This document shows positions 22,459 to 29,300 of a stretch of DNA of 64,000 nucleotides, in pieces (position 1 is the first letter of the stretch; each line of letters opens with the position of its first letter). Location of the stretch: NCBI RefSeq assembly GCF_000279145.1, contig NC_018178.1, positions 806,001-870,000 on the forward strand, written 5' to 3'. The notes beneath the pieces were generated by a model. That model was given only the letters and a program-made list of their open reading frames with translations, was not told where the DNA came from and made no database searches. Origin of the DNA: Melioribacter roseus P3M-2. Its GTDB lineage: Bacteria > Bacteroidota > Ignavibacteria > Ignavibacteriales > Melioribacteraceae. The position numbers and the translations under genes were made by a program.

Positions 22459-22680
22459 TCACTTTCGGAAAAGATATAATATCAAAGAAATAATTATGCT
22501 GATAATTATTGAAGTAGCCAGCGGGAAATAAATTGTATAATTTTTTCCTTTGACAGTAATATCGCCGGGCAATTTTCCGATATAAGGGATTTTACCGAAG
22601 AAGATTAACAAAAGTCCGACGACGAGCAAAACGATTCCGCCGACAACAAGAATTTTTCCGAGAGTCTGAAATTCATTCAT
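22459..22680 (-). CDS. DUF2905 small membrane protein
   Basis: 73 residues with two transmembrane helices (LVVGGIVLLVVGLLLIFFG and IYFPLATSIIISIIISLILY) separated by IPYIGKLPGDITVKGKN, the hallmark of DUF2905. Function unknown. It lies 42 bases downstream of the giant aminotransferase/PEPC-like gene on the same strand, so it may belong to that transcript. Confidence 0.85.
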   Translation of the reverse strand: MNEFQTLGKILVVGGIVLLVVGLLLIFFGKIPYIGKLPGDITVKGKNYTIYFPLATSIIISIIISLILYLFRK

Positions 22681-22722: not shown

Positions 22723-25700
22723 TCAACCGTTTTCACCTGCAAGGCGAGCTATCTGCAACAGATAGAACTTCAGTTTATCCTGATCTTTCGGAGAGAGCGC
22801 TTGCTCTTCAATCTTAATAATTCTTTCGACTTCTTTCAATGCGCGAATAATATTAATCGGAACTTCAACCATCTCCTGAGAGATAGCGGAAAGATATTCG
22901 ACTGCAGCCGAAAGGAATTGCTGCATGTTGTCGTCAAAAGAAGATTTGGCGAATTGTGGCGCGGCTTTCAATTTTTTCGGGGAAAAGAGATACTCTTTAT
23001 AAGAAGAACTCGACGATATTGAATAGAGAGCAATTGCAAGTTCGACAAAGCTTGCCACTCGTTGATAGACCGGTTCTTCGAGTAAATCCCATATTTTCCT
23101 GCGCCACATTCGGATTTCTTCGGGGATTTTCATTAAGCACTTTATTTCCTCAAGCCATTTCTCGTCGACATCCCCTTTAATGTCTTTTAATATCTCTTCG
23201 ACGTCGGTATTAAACAAATTCTTTTGCAAAAGCACCGCGACATCAGGTCTTAGAGTGGGCAACAAGTCCGGAATAAAATTATCGCCTTCAAAGAATTCCG
23301 CCACTTCCAGTCCGTGTCTTCTCAAGAGTTCTTTCTGGAAATAGCTCAAATAATTGTGCATCGAGTCGATATCTTCGCGAAGCGCAATCAATGCTGAGTT
23401 GCCCGCCGGAAAAGCTTTTTCCATTTTACTCAAATATTTCAAATCGACGTCGTGATAGATTCTGAGCGTTTGAAGCATTTCATAAACCGGAAGTTTGGGC
23501 AAAATACGTTCCGATATCAAATAGATCGGTTCGCCTTCGGTAAATTCTCGCTGCGAAAAATTGTTGAGGGCGCGGAACAATCCCGTTGTCAACTGGTTAA
23601 TGCCCAGTATGACGCTCTGAGACTGATTGTGCGATATAGCCCGCAGAAGACTTCCGTATTTCGAAAACGGTATTGTGCCTGCAATTTTCTCAAGAATTTT
23701 TTGACCGGCGCCTTCGCCGACTCCTTGCCCCGGCCGCACGGTGGGACGATCGCGTAAAGGCGGCGTTGTTCTCCCGATAAAATATGATATCAGATGAATT
23801 CCCACCACGTCTTCGTCTCTGCCGTATAAAATCTGCCGGAAATTCTCACGGTGCAGATTCAGGAATTCGTTGAATATTTCGTCTTTCTTGCCGACTGTAA
23901 GTCGCTCAAGCTCCTGCAAACCTCTCGTTTTGAATTGGAGCCTTGTTTCCGACAAAGGTTCGCCCGCTCTTTGGATCTCTTTTTCGTTGAATTTTTGAGC
24001 TTCCATAACATGGAATAGCAGCTGCGCTCTTTGAGCGGTTGTAATATATCTCAGCTTTTCGGAGATATTGCTCTGGAAAGTCCGCAGGTCGCCGCCTGCA
24101 AAGACTCCCAACAACGGCGTGGTTGCATATTGAGTGCTCTTACGCGTCGATTCTGCCAGGTATTTATTAAAACGGTTTTGGGACAGATACGAATCGACAA
24201 ACAATTCTTTTCCTGCAACTTCCGAATAATACCCGCCCTGACGCTGCATCGGCTCGCCGCTGCCCATTTTCATTCGGACCCGCCCTATCAAATTATGAGA
24301 CGCCAGCCAAGTGGTCAATTCGTATTTCGACTCCCTGTAAAGATTCATACCCATCGCCTGTCCCACCTGCTGACTCAAATCAGAACCCGCGACAAAAATT
24401 TCCGTAATAATTTCATTGAAACGATCGGCTGTATCCTGATTCATTCTTCTGCTCTGGAAAGAATATTCCCAAATTCTGTCGAGATAATTCTTTATGTTTC
24501 TTACAGAATCGAGGTCTTCGAAGAGCGGCACCAGCCATACGCCGGGCAAGTCGAGATTGTGGTTTTCCCTTAAAATTTCTTCGCGTTTCGATCTCATTTT
24601 ACGGTCGAGCGATATCAACGCCTCCGGTTTCGTGGTCATGCTCACCTGAAGAGCCAATACCATTCCCGGGTTTCCGTACTTAGCCGCAATTTCATTAATT
24701 TCATTTATATTATGCACCGTTGTATCGATGGCAAATTGATCCTGAGCCGTAATCAGTTTTTGATGAATACGAGGAGTAACGACGAATCTTCTCAACAGGT
24801 CTCTGTACATTAGAGTTTCAAGGAGCAGTCGCTTGTCCGAAAGATTATTCATTATTTCCGGAATATTTGAGCGCAACGTCTTACGCAGTCTTTTATTTAG
24901 ATCGAAGTAATATTCGAGCGTGTTTCTTCTTTTAATTCTCAGGTCGAGCATTTTCCTTTCGAGGCGGTCGTTATGATGCCACAAAAGCGTGAGCGGGTCC
25001 TGAGCAATATGAAGTTTCATTCCGAGTTTTCTCAATTTACCCGGCTGCAAATTGAACGGCAGAGTGCCGCGGTATCTCTTTTCGAGCTGATGAGTTAGTT
25101 GAGTAATCTGGTTCAACAGCGCCGTAAACCGCTTGTTTCGTTGAGGAAGTTTTTCCAATTCCCGAATAAGATATTCGTCGAGTCTAAGCGACTGATTGTT
25201 CTTTAGCAGCATTTCCAATATTCTCGCCTGACGGACTATATTTTCGATTAAAACAAAAGCCACCAGGCTGTGTCCCTGCCCGGAAGGTCGATTGCTGCCG
25301 TCCCAGTCGCCCCAGAAAGACAGGAAGGTTTCGTACTTGCGGTCGGAATAGAGCCCGATAAAATTTTCCGCCGAAATCATTGCATTTAAATCGAGTATCA
25401 ACTCCTGAGGCTCTTCGCTCGATACAATTGCCACGTTTAATCCCAGATATTCTCTTGCAAGCTCTTCTTTCAACTTTTCCAGTTCGCTTTCCTGAATCCG
25501 GTTTCCCCTCAGTAAATTTTCGATAATCCTTTCGGCAATTAAATCCGTTTTAATAGAATACATTTGCGTCGGATGGACTGTTCTGTCGAACATTCTTGTG
25601 CGGAAAGCGCTCTTTCGTCTTTCGAGCGAATCTTTATAAAATTCTCTTTCCAGAATAGATTCGAATTTATTCTGATTTTCCGAAAGAATAAATCCCGCAA

Positions 25701-28314
25701 ACTCGTTTACGTACGATTGAAGTTCTTCGAATCTGTTTCTGTAAACGGATAATTTGTAAGGAATAAATTCGTTGAGGAATTTCTTTTTATTAAACGAAAA
25801 ATCCGCTCCGCCGTTTATTTTATTCAGATGACCCGTAAAAATATGTTCGATATTGTCGAGAATGCGTTTCTCCAGCGCTTTCCAGTCGTCCGAAAAATCT
25901 GCGAGTACGATCTTTTTCTTCAGATTAAGCTTCTTCACTTCGAATTCGCGCTTATTATAATTTGCGGATTCTTCGGCGATCATTCTGTTCAGATCGATTA
26001 AAACACGACGAGTTTTACGCGCAAGGATGTCGGCGCCGTCAGAACCGCCGAGCGTTAGCCTGAATGATTTTCTGCCAGTCTCGAAACCTTTTTCCGTTCT
26101 CGCAAATGTCGAAAGCGGAACAAGTCCGATTCCCTGTCTTGCAAGTCCCGAAGCGAGCCAGTCGAGCGATAATCCTGCCGGCAAATTTTCGATTATCATC
26201 TGAGGATACATACTTCCTGCCGGCGGTTTTATTTTTATGTTGAATCTGTTTCTATCCGCAGGAAGGTCTTCGGCGGCTTCGGCTATTGCATTGCTCCTTT
26301 CGTAAAATATCCTGTTACGGAATTTATGATACGCTTTGACGTCTTCCACTTTATTACGGTAGAGCAGATAAGAAATAAAAATTGCCGAAACGTTATCGCG
26401 AAATGTATCGATTATATTTTTGAATTTATCCCGTAGTTCGGGGAGTCGAATTTCGGCAACCGACAATCGGGCGCCAGCGAATGAATCGGTTTTCGACATC
26501 GAATGAATCGTAACGACAAACTTTTCTTTTTCGCCCGTTATATAGCCTTCTTCAACAAGTTCATTGCACAATTGTCGCAGAGTGTCTACTTTTTCCAATT
26601 CCGGAGATGGTTTCACATTTTGGTACGAAAGGTCGTCGATCACCGTAATTTCTTTTTCGAGCAGCCACTTGAGCAGTTCTTTCAAATCATTTCTGTCGAA
26701 TATTTGTCCTGTGGCGTTATGAGGATTGTTTAACACAACCGCGCCGTATTTCTTCCAACCGGAATCATTCGAAATTTTGTTTCGAACTGCGTTTATTATT
26801 GCGTCAATATCGATCTGGAAATTATTTTTTAAGGGAACCGTTACTACTTCGGGAAAACAATGTTCGTAAGTCCAGCTGAGGTCGGGAATAATAACTTCCC
26901 GAATTCCGCAATGGAATCCGAGTATGCTTAGGGCTGTTCTCGAAGAACCGCTGACTACCAGGCAGTCCCCAAGTTTATATTCCGGATGATGGTTGATAAA
27001 TGCGCTCAGGTACGACGCTTTGAGGTCTTTTTTCCAATCCGGGTTGTTAAAATTTTCCGTCATTTCGTCGAACAGTTCGATCGCGTTGTACGAAGCAAAT
27101 CTGTCGTAACTGATTTTCGAGGAAAATCTTTCCCTCGCATCCAAATGGGAGTTGAATTTTTGTATAATTCCGTTAATCTTTTTTTCTATTTCACTGCCTT
27201 TCGATTCGGCAATAGTACCTATAATTTTTTCTGCCGCAGCGGCGATGTCGGAAAGCGGTTCGAATCCGAATTTAATCGATTCCCCTTCGATATCGGCTTC
27301 GATATCGAGGTCTATCGACTCCTCTTCTTCCTTGATTCCGTTCTTCAGTAAATAATTCAACAATGTTATTTCAGTCGAAGACGGCGTTCCTTTCAGTTTG
27401 AAGTGCACGTTTTCGAGAACTTTAATAAACTCATGATTGCCGGCGATAAAAACGAGCGAAAAACCTTTTAACTTTTTCGAAAACGCCGAAGGAGTGATAA
27501 AACGAAGAACGCGGTTCATCATTTTGGCTTCGCGAGCCAGCGACAGGTGATTTGGAGCGTTATTTATTTCTACAAAAAAAAGAGGATGTTCTAAACTCAG
27601 ATTCCTTAAACGTCTCCTTGTCTCTTCGTTGGTAATACTGCCCAGTATAAGAAACTTTGGAAGACTATCGTTATTGAAGAGCCGGGTCAATTGAGGCAGA
27701 AGGGCGTCTTCCGTCTTTCCCAGATTGTGAAAACGAACGCCTTCAAAGTTTTTAAGATGCGCAGGAATTTCGTAATCGTACAAAAGAACATCGGCAGGCA
27801 GATTGACTAAAAACTCCGAAATCGAATGGAGAAGAACGCGCAGAGTTTCGGCAATTCCGTTCGATGCAATGATTATTTCTCTTTTGCCCGATTTTGCGCC
27901 CGTATCGTATGAAAGCGGGTCCTGCTGTTTATGCGAAAGCCAGTCATTAAAAAAATCGATTATAAATTCCGGCTTCGATTTAACATAGCCGCCTCGCGGC
28001 GAATACGGAGCCGCTCTTTTAATAAGCTCCGCAATCAGTTTTACTTTCCGGATGTCATTTTCCGAACAGTTTAATTCGCGGCAAAATTCTTCGGGATTTT
28101 CAATCGAAAATTTCTCGTCGAGCAGTCCGACGTTCATAGCCAGGCGCATATAAAGAGAGTGAAGCCGGTCGTCCTGCACCGGATTTCCGATATGGAAATT
28201 AACTCTCTCCTGAACCGGCACGGAAGAAGCGGCGGTCGATTCGCTTATTTCCGAGACTTTCGCCGCTTTAATCGGTTTCAGTTCAAAAAGCAACAGCGGA
28301 TCTTTTGAATTCAT
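22723..28314 (-). CDS. Giant fusion: degenerate aminotransferase + aminotransferase + PEP-carboxylase-like domain
   Basis: 1863 residues, cytoplasmic. Residues about 35-320 look like a worn fold-type I aminotransferase (GNPV 43-46, PYSPRGGY 103-110, SAFSKK 276-281) lacking the usual Asn and Asp. Residues about 400-770 are an apparently complete PLP aminotransferase: GSSRTAL 456-462, WTY 481-483, NNPHNATG 529-536, D560/D561, SMSKTDSFAGAR with K608 and R616, and R752. Residues about 890-1620 follow the order of PEP carboxylase motifs: HPTQ 914-917, WGDWDGSNRP 1001-1010, VPLFEDLDS 1262-1270, GSDLSQQVG 1310-1318, GSGEPMQRQGG 1351-1361, GDLRTFQSNISEKLRY 1408-1423 and LRAISHNQSQS 1557-1567. His and the two metal acids appear kept, while the lysine and one arginine of the substrate pocket appear replaced. 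The final 240 residues are helical and unassigned. It is co-transcribed after an SPFH gene (8-base gap). Activity is not known. Confidence 0.7.
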   Translation of the reverse strand: MNSKDPLLLFELKPIKAAKVSEISESTAASSVPVQERVNFHIGNPVQDDRLHSLYMRLAMNVGLLDEKFSIENPEEFCRELNCSENDIRKVKLIAELIKRAAPYSPRGGYVKSKPEFIIDFFNDWLSHKQQDPLSYDTGAKSGKREIIIASNGIAETLRVLLHSISEFLVNLPADVLLYDYEIPAHLKNFEGVRFHNLGKTEDALLPQLTRLFNNDSLPKFLILGSITNEETRRRLRNLSLEHPLFFVEINNAPNHLSLAREAKMMNRVLRFITPSAFSKKLKGFSLVFIAGNHEFIKVLENVHFKLKGTPSSTEITLLNYLLKNGIKEEEESIDLDIEADIEGESIKFGFEPLSDIAAAAEKIIGTIAESKGSEIEKKINGIIQKFNSHLDARERFSSKISYDRFASYNAIELFDEMTENFNNPDWKKDLKASYLSAFINHHPEYKLGDCLVVSGSSRTALSILGFHCGIREVIIPDLSWTYEHCFPEVVTVPLKNNFQIDIDAIINAVRNKISNDSGWKKYGAVVLNNPHNATGQIFDRNDLKELLKWLLEKEITVIDDLSYQNVKPSPELEKVDTLRQLCNELVEEGYITGEKEKFVVTIHSMSKTDSFAGARLSVAEIRLPELRDKFKNIIDTFRDNVSAIFISYLLYRNKVEDVKAYHKFRNRIFYERSNAIAEAAEDLPADRNRFNIKIKPPAGSMYPQMIIENLPAGLSLDWLASGLARQGIGLVPLSTFARTEKGFETGRKSFRLTLGGSDGADILARKTRRVLIDLNRMIAEESANYNKREFEVKKLNLKKKIVLADFSDDWKALEKRILDNIEHIFTGHLNKINGGADFSFNKKKFLNEFIPYKLSVYRNRFEELQSYVNEFAGFILSENQNKFESILEREFYKDSLERRKSAFRTRMFDRTVHPTQMYSIKTDLIAERIIENLLRGNRIQESELEKLKEELAREYLGLNVAIVSSEEPQELILDLNAMISAENFIGLYSDRKYETFLSFWGDWDGSNRPSGQGHSLVAFVLIENIVRQARILEMLLKNNQSLRLDEYLIRELEKLPQRNKRFTALLNQITQLTHQLEKRYRGTLPFNLQPGKLRKLGMKLHIAQDPLTLLWHHNDRLERKMLDLRIKRRNTLEYYFDLNKRLRKTLRSNIPEIMNNLSDKRLLLETLMYRDLLRRFVVTPRIHQKLITAQDQFAIDTTVHNINEINEIAAKYGNPGMVLALQVSMTTKPEALISLDRKMRSKREEILRENHNLDLPGVWLVPLFEDLDSVRNIKNYLDRIWEYSFQSRRMNQDTADRFNEIITEIFVAGSDLSQQVGQAMGMNLYRESKYELTTWLASHNLIGRVRMKMGSGEPMQRQGGYYSEVAGKELFVDSYLSQNRFNKYLAESTRKSTQYATTPLLGVFAGGDLRTFQSNISEKLRYITTAQRAQLLFHVMEAQKFNEKEIQRAGEPLSETRLQFKTRGLQELERLTVGKKDEIFNEFLNLHRENFRQILYGRDEDVVGIHLISYFIGRTTPPLRDRPTVRPGQGVGEGAGQKILEKIAGTIPFSKYGSLLRAISHNQSQSVILGINQLTTGLFRALNNFSQREFTEGEPIYLISERILPKLPVYEMLQTLRIYHDVDLKYLSKMEKAFPAGNSALIALREDIDSMHNYLSYFQKELLRRHGLEVAEFFEGDNFIPDLLPTLRPDVAVLLQKNLFNTDVEEILKDIKGDVDEKWLEEIKCLMKIPEEIRMWRRKIWDLLEEPVYQRVASFVELAIALYSISSSSSYKEYLFSPKKLKAAPQFAKSSFDDNMQQFLSAAVEYLSAISQEMVEVPINIIRALKEVERIIKIEEQALSPKDQDKLKFYLLQIARLAGENG

Positions 28315-28322
28315 TCTGATAG

Positions 28323-29300
28323 CTATTCGGTTTTTCCTTCACTGTTTTTCTTTCTGCTTCCCGTGAGATTATGAAGAAGATTCTGAAAAAGTCCCGCTAA
28401 TTCCGAGCCCTGAGGCAAATCGGCGGACGACAAAGATACAACCGTACGCGCATTTTTAAGCGTTTGACTTGCTTCCGCAAGGCGAGCGGCTTGAGGAGTA
28501 AGGAGCAACAGTTCGGGATTATTTTTGAGCAATTCCAATTCTTTCGATTCGAATTCGAGCTGCATCTGTTTTCTTTTAAGTTCTTCTTTAACGCGTTTTT
28601 CGGCTATTTCGGCTTCTTTTTCGATTTCCTTGTTTTTCAGTTCGAATTTTTTCATTTCGAGCTGATTTTCCATCAAAGCAATCTCTTCTTCGGCTTTGAA
28701 TTTTGCTTTGGCCGCTGCAATGCGAGCTTTCTGATTAAGCTCTTCGGTTTGTTCCAGAATGCGGGCCGATTCCTGTTGTTTGATGGCGTCCGCGATTTTG
28801 GAATCGAGAATTTCAATCAACTGAATCGAAATCGAAACAATTTCCAACCCGAATTTATCTTTGCTTATGTCGGTCTTTTTATTCAGATATTCGTAAATTT
28901 TTTCGCCGCTCAATTCCTCGATTTCAAACTTTTCGGTGAATTCCCTCACCAAACTTTCAATCAGAATTTCGAGTTCTTTCGTGGCTTTTTCGACGGCTTT
29001 AGTGTTCCATCCTCCGGCTTTAATCAATTTATGAATATTGTCGAGAGAGAGCGCTACGCTCAGCGTCATTTTAATTTTTATATCGAGATTTCCTTTGGCA
29101 GTCGAATCGATATTTAATTGAACCGAATGGATCGTTCTGGGAAGCACCAGGCTCAAATGACGCGGATAGAACCTTCCCTTTCTGAGTATGATTTTTCCGT
29201 CCGACTCGTATAATACCAGCTGGTCGGGTTTCCGCAATCTGAATTCATAAAGCAGAAACAGGATTATCAATACGACTATTATAGCTATTGCTGACCACAT
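28323..29300 (-). CDS. SPFH/band-7 domain membrane protein
   Basis: 325 residues. An N-terminal transmembrane helix (residues 3-19, SAIAIIVVLIILFLLYE) is followed by an SPFH-like domain (about 25-170) with the characteristic NIDSTAKGNLDIKIKMTLSV and an amphipathic tail region EILDSKIADAIKQQESA. A long charged coiled coil runs from about 175 to 265, ending in a flexible C-terminus. SPFH proteins oligomerise into membrane rings or microdomain scaffolds. It is the first gene of the transcript that continues into the giant PLP/PEPC-like enzyme 8 bases later, which suggests the two products act together at the membrane. Confidence 0.75.
   Translation of the reverse strand: MWSAIAIIVVLIILFLLYEFRLRKPDQLVLYESDGKIILRKGRFYPRHLSLVLPRTIHSVQLNIDSTAKGNLDIKIKMTLSVALSLDNIHKLIKAGGWNTKAVEKATKELEILIESLVREFTEKFEIEELSGEKIYEYLNKKTDISKDKFGLEIVSISIQLIEILDSKIADAIKQQESARILEQTEELNQKARIAAAKAKFKAEEEIALMENQLEMKKFELKNKEIEKEAEIAEKRVKEELKRKQMQLEFESKELELLKNNPELLLLTPQAARLAEASQTLKNARTVVSLSSADLPQGSELAGLFQNLLHNLTGSRKKNSEGKTE

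Follow-up and report, generated by a model that had tools for sequence, protein, structure and literature searches.

The DNA analyzed here, called the window, is a stretch of 64,000 nucleotides from the Melioribacter roseus P3M-2 genome, which is 3.30 Mb in a single contig (window at G000:C1:806001-870000). At 22723..28314, on the minus strand, lies an open reading frame encoding a protein of 1863 residues, called the giant below. ORF and homologues together give it three parts: an eroded aminotransferase, an active-type aminotransferase and a domain resembling phosphoenolpyruvate carboxylase (PEPC). A gene for a 325-residue SPFH/Band-7-like protein (28323..29300, minus strand) is located directly upstream, with 8 bases between its end and the start codon of the giant.

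Recurrence of the giant frame

The giant is present in 22 of the 197 genomes sampled from the class, the window genome counted, and the best matches in the 21 other genomes are 47–62% identical. A peptide-pattern scan of genome contigs showed that five named Melioribacter/Bacteroidetes loci also encode it, and an 87%-identical homologue is encoded on a Melioribacter roseus contig. Because the chain recurs in 21 class genomes and five named loci, the frame is not a chance ORF, and the preliminary description of this DNA was right to treat all 1863 residues as real. Conservation extends along the whole chain across the giants, and active-site residues are invariant. When 395 genomes of the phylum were searched with the PEPC-like part alone, 15 matched, all of them members of the class or nearer. 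The matches were full-length frames of 1866–1922 residues or pieces of split copies; no standalone PEPC-like version was found among the 395 genomes. Beyond the phylum, the search consisted of one peptide-pattern scan of genome contigs and plasmid records, and the plasmid records gave no match to the giant.

Three giants are split into two frames on one contig (G066:C54:21590-27084, G131:C108:25139-30656 and G469:C152:6-2650), the second piece of the G469 copy carrying an in-frame TGA. These copies are either assembly errors or decaying genes. In a tree of the giants, four sequences of family f10 fall among those of family f1 and the named loci, and f1 does not form one group. This topology suggests that the giant and the SPFH-like gene spread horizontally as a module.

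The SPFH-like partner gene

The SPFH-like neighbour is an addition to the preliminary description, which lacked any mention of it. By sequence the protein has a hydrophobic N-terminus, followed by an SPFH-like domain and a charged helical tail. The identification draws on Pfam matches: the window protein matches PF01145 with 22.0 bits and E 1.9e-4, below the Pfam cut-off of 23.6 bits, and nine of 14 family members match PF01145 at E≤0.01, the best at 8.6e-7. The family profile found nothing among PDB sequences at E≤0.01. A profile search at E≤1e-5 found the family in exactly the 22 giant-bearing genomes and in none of the 175 others. In every one of the 22 carriers, the SPFH-like match is on the same contig and strand as the giant, with a match-to-match gap of 14–275 bases. 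ORF clustering alone had placed an SPFH neighbour at 20 of 24 loci, and the profile and coordinates recovered the four missed loci; the next commonest neighbour cluster occurs at 4 of 24. The C-terminal segment of the SPFH-like protein (PELLLLTPQAARLAEASQ-LKNA) contains the densest run of invariant columns in the family and is possibly a docking site for the giant.

Two aminotransferase copies in one chain

Residues 400–790 (25945..27117, minus strand) comprise an aminotransferase large domain with the full catalytic set, plus the second part of a small domain, as judged from Pfam, alignment to E. coli YbdL and fold match. Residues 436–758 match Pfam Aminotran_1_2 (PF00155) with 60.3 bits and E 2.5e-16, above the cut-off of 19.7 bits, and in a profile alignment residues 448–757 align to YbdL 91–371 with E 1.1e-18. 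Lys608 (26491..26493, minus strand), the PLP Schiff-base lysine, aligns to the lysine of YbdL SFGKT; it and N533, D560, D561, Y564, R616 and R752 are identical in all 23 giants, which bears out the earlier reading of this domain as complete. Since its match begins at YbdL position 91, this copy has neither a GxP segment nor a Tyr70-type loop of its own. There is thus one complete set of PLP-site residues per chain, in residues 400–790.

A model of residues 1–795 had an overall pLDDT of 64.6; by 10-residue block, the second copy lay at 60–95 and mostly above 75, with the first copy lower. The model has the type I fold, and its matches with LysN and ACC synthase reach a Z of about 27. Among the matches listed, single aminotransferase chains gave Z 25.3–27.3 over 310–386 aligned residues, and the matched region spanned model residues 14–38 to 772–785. 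These values fit the idea that residues 15–47 and 400–780 would together form one aminotransferase subunit.

Residues 15–47 (28174..28272, minus strand) are an N-terminal small-domain segment whose VNFHIGNP motif aligns to YbdL INLSQGFP; the assignment draws on this alignment, on conservation in 23 of 23 giants and on the fold match. Alignment and conservation make residues 48–340 (27295..28173, minus strand) an eroded large-domain copy that has lost the PLP lysine and kept the Y104 and GTPS loops. A linker, residues 341–399 (27118..27294, minus strand), contains a long helix predicted by the model at 355–398. The order of helices and strands over the eroded copy is consistent in the model, where confidence is low. 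A Pfam search with the first copy at E≤1 gave no family of aminotransferases; a PDB search at E≤10 gave no aminotransferase either, its only matches being two chains from viral capsids (E 1.7 and 2.4). With hhalign the first copy matched aminotransferases weakly (P 0.23 and 0.09) in the expected register, residues 34–45 to YbdL 29–40 and 147–314 to 93–272; the alignment of the two PLP copies with each other, and of each copy with PEPC, was not significant. In a global profile alignment to YbdL 18–300, residues 25–340 scored 17.1. None of 300 column shuffles (best 11.1) and none of 300 block shuffles did as well, though the best block shuffle came close at 16.4. The aligned pairs were VNFHIGNP/INLSQGFP, PYSPRGG/YAPMTG and SAFSK-KLKG/SSFGKTYHMTG. 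Lysine has gone from the PLP position, with K280 in two and K281 in five of the 23 giants, while G43, N44, P45, Y104, P106, G108, G109 and P311 are found in all 23 and T310 and S312 in 22. Residues 25–340 are therefore a decayed aminotransferase copy, as had been noticed before, and one without its PLP lysine.

In characterized aminotransferases, the counterparts of Y104 and of the 310–312 loop extend into the site of the neighbouring subunit; in aspartate aminotransferase they are Tyr70 and the loop that follows Arg292. We read the chain as the first part of a small domain, then a dead and a live large domain, and last the second part of the small domain. The two copies fit a one-site pseudo-dimer within a single chain, because the first copy keeps the GxP segment and the partner-lent loops that are missing from the second. 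The earlier suggestion that the worn domain could complete a dimer within the chain is thus supported by model, fold match, alignment and conservation.

A remote PEPC relative at the C-terminus

A poorly conserved linker, residues 791–889 (25648..25944, minus strand), precedes the PEPC-like domain, residues 890–1863 (22726..25647, minus strand), which was recognized by sub-threshold Pfam matches, an HMM and profile alignment. Profile searches gave a divided answer to the proposal that this part belongs with PEPC. The window giant had no Pfam PEPcase match at E≤1 or at E≤10. Of its homologues, three of the 23 giants matched PEPcase (PF00311) below threshold, namely L029 (6.2e-4), L030 (0.013) and L032 (0.05), with a best score of 18.3 bits (L029) against a curated cut-off of 22.4 bits. 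Two giants, L029 (0.0086) and L018 (0.065), also gave sub-threshold matches to the archaeal-type PEPcase_2. The other sub-threshold families were RNA_binding in seven giants (best 0.039), ANG-1 in five (best 0.03) and UPF0175 in one (0.0087), so that PEPcase had the lowest E-value, PEPcase_2 the second and UPF0175 the third. When a local HMM of 54 PEPCs (from the class, the phylum and E. coli) was run with 23 reversed and 115 shuffled sequences as controls, 17 real giants outranked all controls and the other six mixed with or fell below the best controls. The L029 alignment puts SMT, PLFE, SD and GxG..RxGG in register.

Residues 790–1863 were also aligned globally, by profile, to E. coli Ppc. 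The score of 59.7 exceeded those of all 200 column shuffles and all 200 block shuffles, by a thin margin since the best shuffles reached 58.0 and 56.8, respectively. For the core alone, none of 300 column and none of 300 block shuffles was as good; for the C-terminal third alone, 1/300 and 5/300 were. The N-terminal third is weak, because 18 and 91 of 300 shuffles equalled it. The best-supported stretch is residues 1198–1365 (24220..24723, minus strand), covered by the Pfam PEPcase matches of L029, L030 and L032, by the local HMM and by the 0/300 shuffle result; it includes SMT, PLFE (Glu1266), SD (Asp1312, Gln1315) and GSGEPMQRQGG (Ser1352, Arg1358). By hhalign, residues 821–1863 had no significant match to 31 PEPCs of the class, the PLFE stretch alone being aligned with probability 1.7, which a sub-window lifted to 27. 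Of the four best alternative hhalign alignments, three covered motifs in the sequence known from PEPC (HPT, GDWDG region, PLFE), and none was significant singly. A profile of the PEPC-like part found nothing at E≤10 among PDB sequences (hmmsearch). An AlphaFold model of this part from six sequences had pLDDT 42.3 and pTM 0.33; with it Foldseek found nothing below E 1.5, an outcome that carries no meaning at so low a model confidence. In sum, residues ~890–1863 are a remote relative of PEPC, with a resemblance beyond that of shuffled controls, and the earlier proposal of PEPC homology with an altered pocket is upheld by the sub-threshold Pfam matches, the local HMM and the profile alignment with its shuffles.

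Active-site positions of the PEPC-like part

Numbering of E. coli PEPC was fixed through a PDB alignment and the gene itself. A profile alignment to Ppc made without anchors paired H138 with H914, E506 with E1266, D543 with D1312, K546 with Q1315, R581 with S1352, R587 with R1358, R699 with R1523, R713 with R1558 and G883 with G1863. The preliminary description had reached its pairs by eye, that of R713 with R1558 included, and the alignment returns the same ones, with R699/R1523 and G883/G1863 in addition. HPT at 914–916 (25567..25575, minus strand) corresponds to the His138 loop of PEPC, DRPTVRP at 1522–1528 (23731..23751, minus strand) to GSRPAxR with Arg699, and LRAI at 1557–1560 (23635..23646, minus strand) to LRAIPW with Arg713; HPT, R1523 and LRAI are conserved in 23 of 23 giants. 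The chain ends in Asn-Gly (22726..22731, minus strand), Gly1863 being present in all 23, and PEPC likewise ends in glycine. Two motif assignments fared less well. For GDWDG at 1002, W248 does align to W1004, but the register is uncertain. GDLRTFQ at 1408 could not be confirmed: in the profile alignment K620 of E. coli QGEMIRFK aligns to N1383, upstream of it.

PEPC forms carboxyphosphate from bicarbonate and PEP, binds its metal through a Glu and an Asp and has a conserved His on a flexible loop, according to PMC10176493. The equivalents of these three residues (His138, Glu506 and Asp543), H914, E1266 and D1312, are found in 23 of 23 giants, as are R1358, R1523 and R1558, the equivalents of Arg587, Arg699 and Arg713. 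The five residues earlier listed as kept (His914, Glu1266, Asp1312, Arg1358 and Arg1558) are thus invariant. The two replacements predicted with them are family-wide: the Lys546 position is Gln1315 in 23 of 23 giants, and the Arg581 position is Ser1352 in 22 and Asn in one. Lys546 and Arg581 of PEPC are bicarbonate- and phosphate-site residues; of 56 aligned PEPCs, 55 have Lys546 and all have Arg581, whereas each is found in 0 of 23 giants. Arg396 aligns on M1155 in the profile alignment, the invariant R1182 being a candidate by eye. The LRAIPW and GRGG motifs are altered, LRAI being followed in the giants by S, A or G and then H. Among the giants there is little or no variation at Q1315, over most of GSGEPMQRQGG and at the HN that follows LRAI.

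PEPC, PEPCK and other neighbours

The window genome has a separate, ordinary PEPC, an open frame of 948 residues. In the class sample, six of the 22 carriers have a PEPC over the cut-off, as do 38 of the 175 genomes without the giant (Fisher p 0.59); with no association, the idea that the giant replaces normal PEPC was set aside. In family f1 (20 genomes), seven genomes carry the giant and seven have PEPC, the overlap being the window genome only, numbers too few to weigh. ATP-PEPCK is present in 22/22 carriers and 116/175 others (p 3e-4, kinship ignored). In two genomes of one genus (G058 and G066), the giant is followed by an aminotransferase gene, ATP-PEPCK and another member of that aminotransferase cluster (L094:13028-18001, and the first about 5 kb of L097); by Pfam, the first aminotransferase in G058 is of class I. 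These neighbours, in one genus only, hint at oxaloacetate/aspartate metabolism. The linkage may be incidental because the window genome has a similar pair, adjacent PEPCK and Aminotran_1_2 matches, far from the giant (G000:C1:1598761-1601384, minus strand).

Just downstream of the giant is a 73-residue ORF (22459-22680, minus strand) that resembles a membrane protein and looks DUF2905-like by eye. It was rejected as a third partner, being present in two of 23 context loci (L096 and L029). A role in anti-phage defence was set aside as well, no PADLOC match being found at E≤0.01, and a look for an RNA fold downstream of the giant found nothing.

Discussion

The giant and its neighbour are made of parts of known kinds. 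The PEPC-like part resembles bacterial/plant-type PEPC (E. coli Ppc) in its colinear HPT, SMT, PLFE, SD, GxG..RxGG, RPxxR, LRAI and C-terminal Gly. It differs from PEPC in falling below the Pfam cut-off, in having Gln for Lys546 and Ser for Arg581, and in its rewritten LRAIPW and GRGG loops; compared with E. coli PEPC (883 residues) it is longer, and it was found only fused in the searches run. Residues 400–790 share fold and catalytic residues with the fold-type I aminotransferases YbdL, LysN, kynurenine aminotransferase Bna3 and ACC synthase. Aminotransferases of the YbdL/LysN/Bna3/ACC synthase type are homodimers with two sites, whereas the giant, unlike class I/II aminotransferases, has two large domains, one of them lysine-less, and one shared small domain. 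Serine palmitoyltransferase is a heterodimer of the LCB1/LCB2 type with one live and one lysine-less PLP-fold subunit. The giant likewise pairs a live with a lysine-less PLP fold; unlike LCB1/LCB2, it carries the two folds on a single chain, and its dead copy has no second small-domain part of its own. SPFH/Band-7 proteins are encoded with constant NfeD operon partners, as set out in the main text of PMC2636767, in which the words 'aminotransferase' and 'phosphoenolpyruvate' have 0 occurrences. The SPFH-like protein here also has a constant partner gene; the difference is that the partner is a giant PLP/PEPC-like protein. The literature searched, mostly outside subscription journals, gave no description of an aminotransferase-PEPC-like protein with an SPFH protein, and nothing on Melioribacter roseus with PEPC or on SPFH with aminotransferase and PEPC.

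The evidence suggests that the giant and its SPFH-like neighbour form a membrane-associated two-step enzyme, undescribed so far. Tentatively, and with somewhat less confidence than doubt, we propose as the likeliest of the readings a membrane-tethered enzyme of two parts, a pseudo-dimer PLP site and an altered PEPC-derived site, assembled by the SPFH protein. The decayed copy would pack on the active copy as the other half of an aminotransferase dimer and contribute its Tyr104 and GTPS loop to the one active site, and residues 15–47 would provide the small-domain strand missing from the second copy. The PLP site would convert an amino acid into the corresponding 2-oxo acid and back, or carry out a related PLP reaction. 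The PEPC-derived site may bind a 2-oxo acid as a metal-stabilized enolate and make or break a C-C bond, for example by carboxylation or decarboxylation, without the phosphate and bicarbonate chemistry that true PEPC has. Gene linkage is the basis for supposing that the SPFH protein might assemble the giant as a ring or array bound to the membrane.

Two other explanations bear on whether the C-terminal part is PEPC-like at all and, if so, whether it works as PEPC. The resemblance might come from chance or convergent motifs in an unrelated helical domain of residues ~890–1863, as the lack of a Pfam match in the window giant, the empty PDB profile search at E≤10, the non-significant whole-part hhalign and the weak N-terminal third would allow. 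We regard this as very improbable, given that the two lowest sub-threshold Pfam E-values are PEPcase (6.2e-4) and PEPcase_2 (0.0086), with an unrelated family third (0.0087), that two further methods recover motif order and register with 0/200 shuffles as good, and that the C-terminal ends match. The preliminary description had offered a channel from PEP through oxaloacetate to aspartate in one chain, in which the pocket would have to tolerate Gln and Ser for Lys546 and Arg581. PEPC homology and an aminotransferase do share the chain, and the equivalents of His138, Glu506, Asp543, Arg587, Arg699 and Arg713 are kept; of the seven sampled f1 carriers the window genome alone also has PEPC, and aminotransferase and PEPCK genes adjoin the giant in one genus. 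The case is weakened because the catalytic positive charges, all but universal in the aligned PEPCs, are replaced in 23/23 giants, an ordinary PEPC is encoded in the window genome, and carriers show neither enrichment nor depletion of PEPC (p 0.59). ATP-PEPCK in 22/22 carriers also counts against the channel, which we consider improbable. The earlier alternative, in which a PEPC scaffold serves a new activity, is the better fit.

Because Glu, Asp and His are kept while Lys546 and Arg581 are lost, the reading that we favour is a changed enolate chemistry, whose substrate would be a 2-oxo acid produced at the PLP site or handed on to it. The main rival to this reading is a pseudoenzyme: the PEPC-derived domain would serve the PLP enzyme as a scaffold or as a ligand sensor, regulating it or setting its position at the membrane. 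The absence of Lys546 and Arg581 throughout the giants would be expected of such a domain, as would the altered LRAIPW (S/A/G then H) and GRGG motifs and the constant linkage to a scaffold-type SPFH-like gene. Yet six catalytic or substrate-site residues are present in 23/23 giants, and the near or full invariance of Q1315, most of GSGEPMQRQGG and HN is unusual for a dead site; we think a pseudoenzyme rather unlikely.

It is possible, if doubtful, that the giant stands for a new class of enzyme. In it a PEPC-derived domain would have given up PEP/bicarbonate chemistry in favour of a PLP-generated 2-oxo acid and would share its chain with an aminotransferase that fusion to a dead partner half has brought down to one site, the whole being placed in an SPFH membrane assembly of its own and spreading as a two-gene module in Melioribacter-related bacteria. 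In its aminotransferase half, the giant has the look of a homodimer with two sites that became a single chain with one. To our knowledge, a single reaction has been described for bacterial/plant-type PEPC. A PEPC lineage that keeps the metal and enolate residues and replaces two charged residues of the pocket would show this scaffold changing its chemistry.
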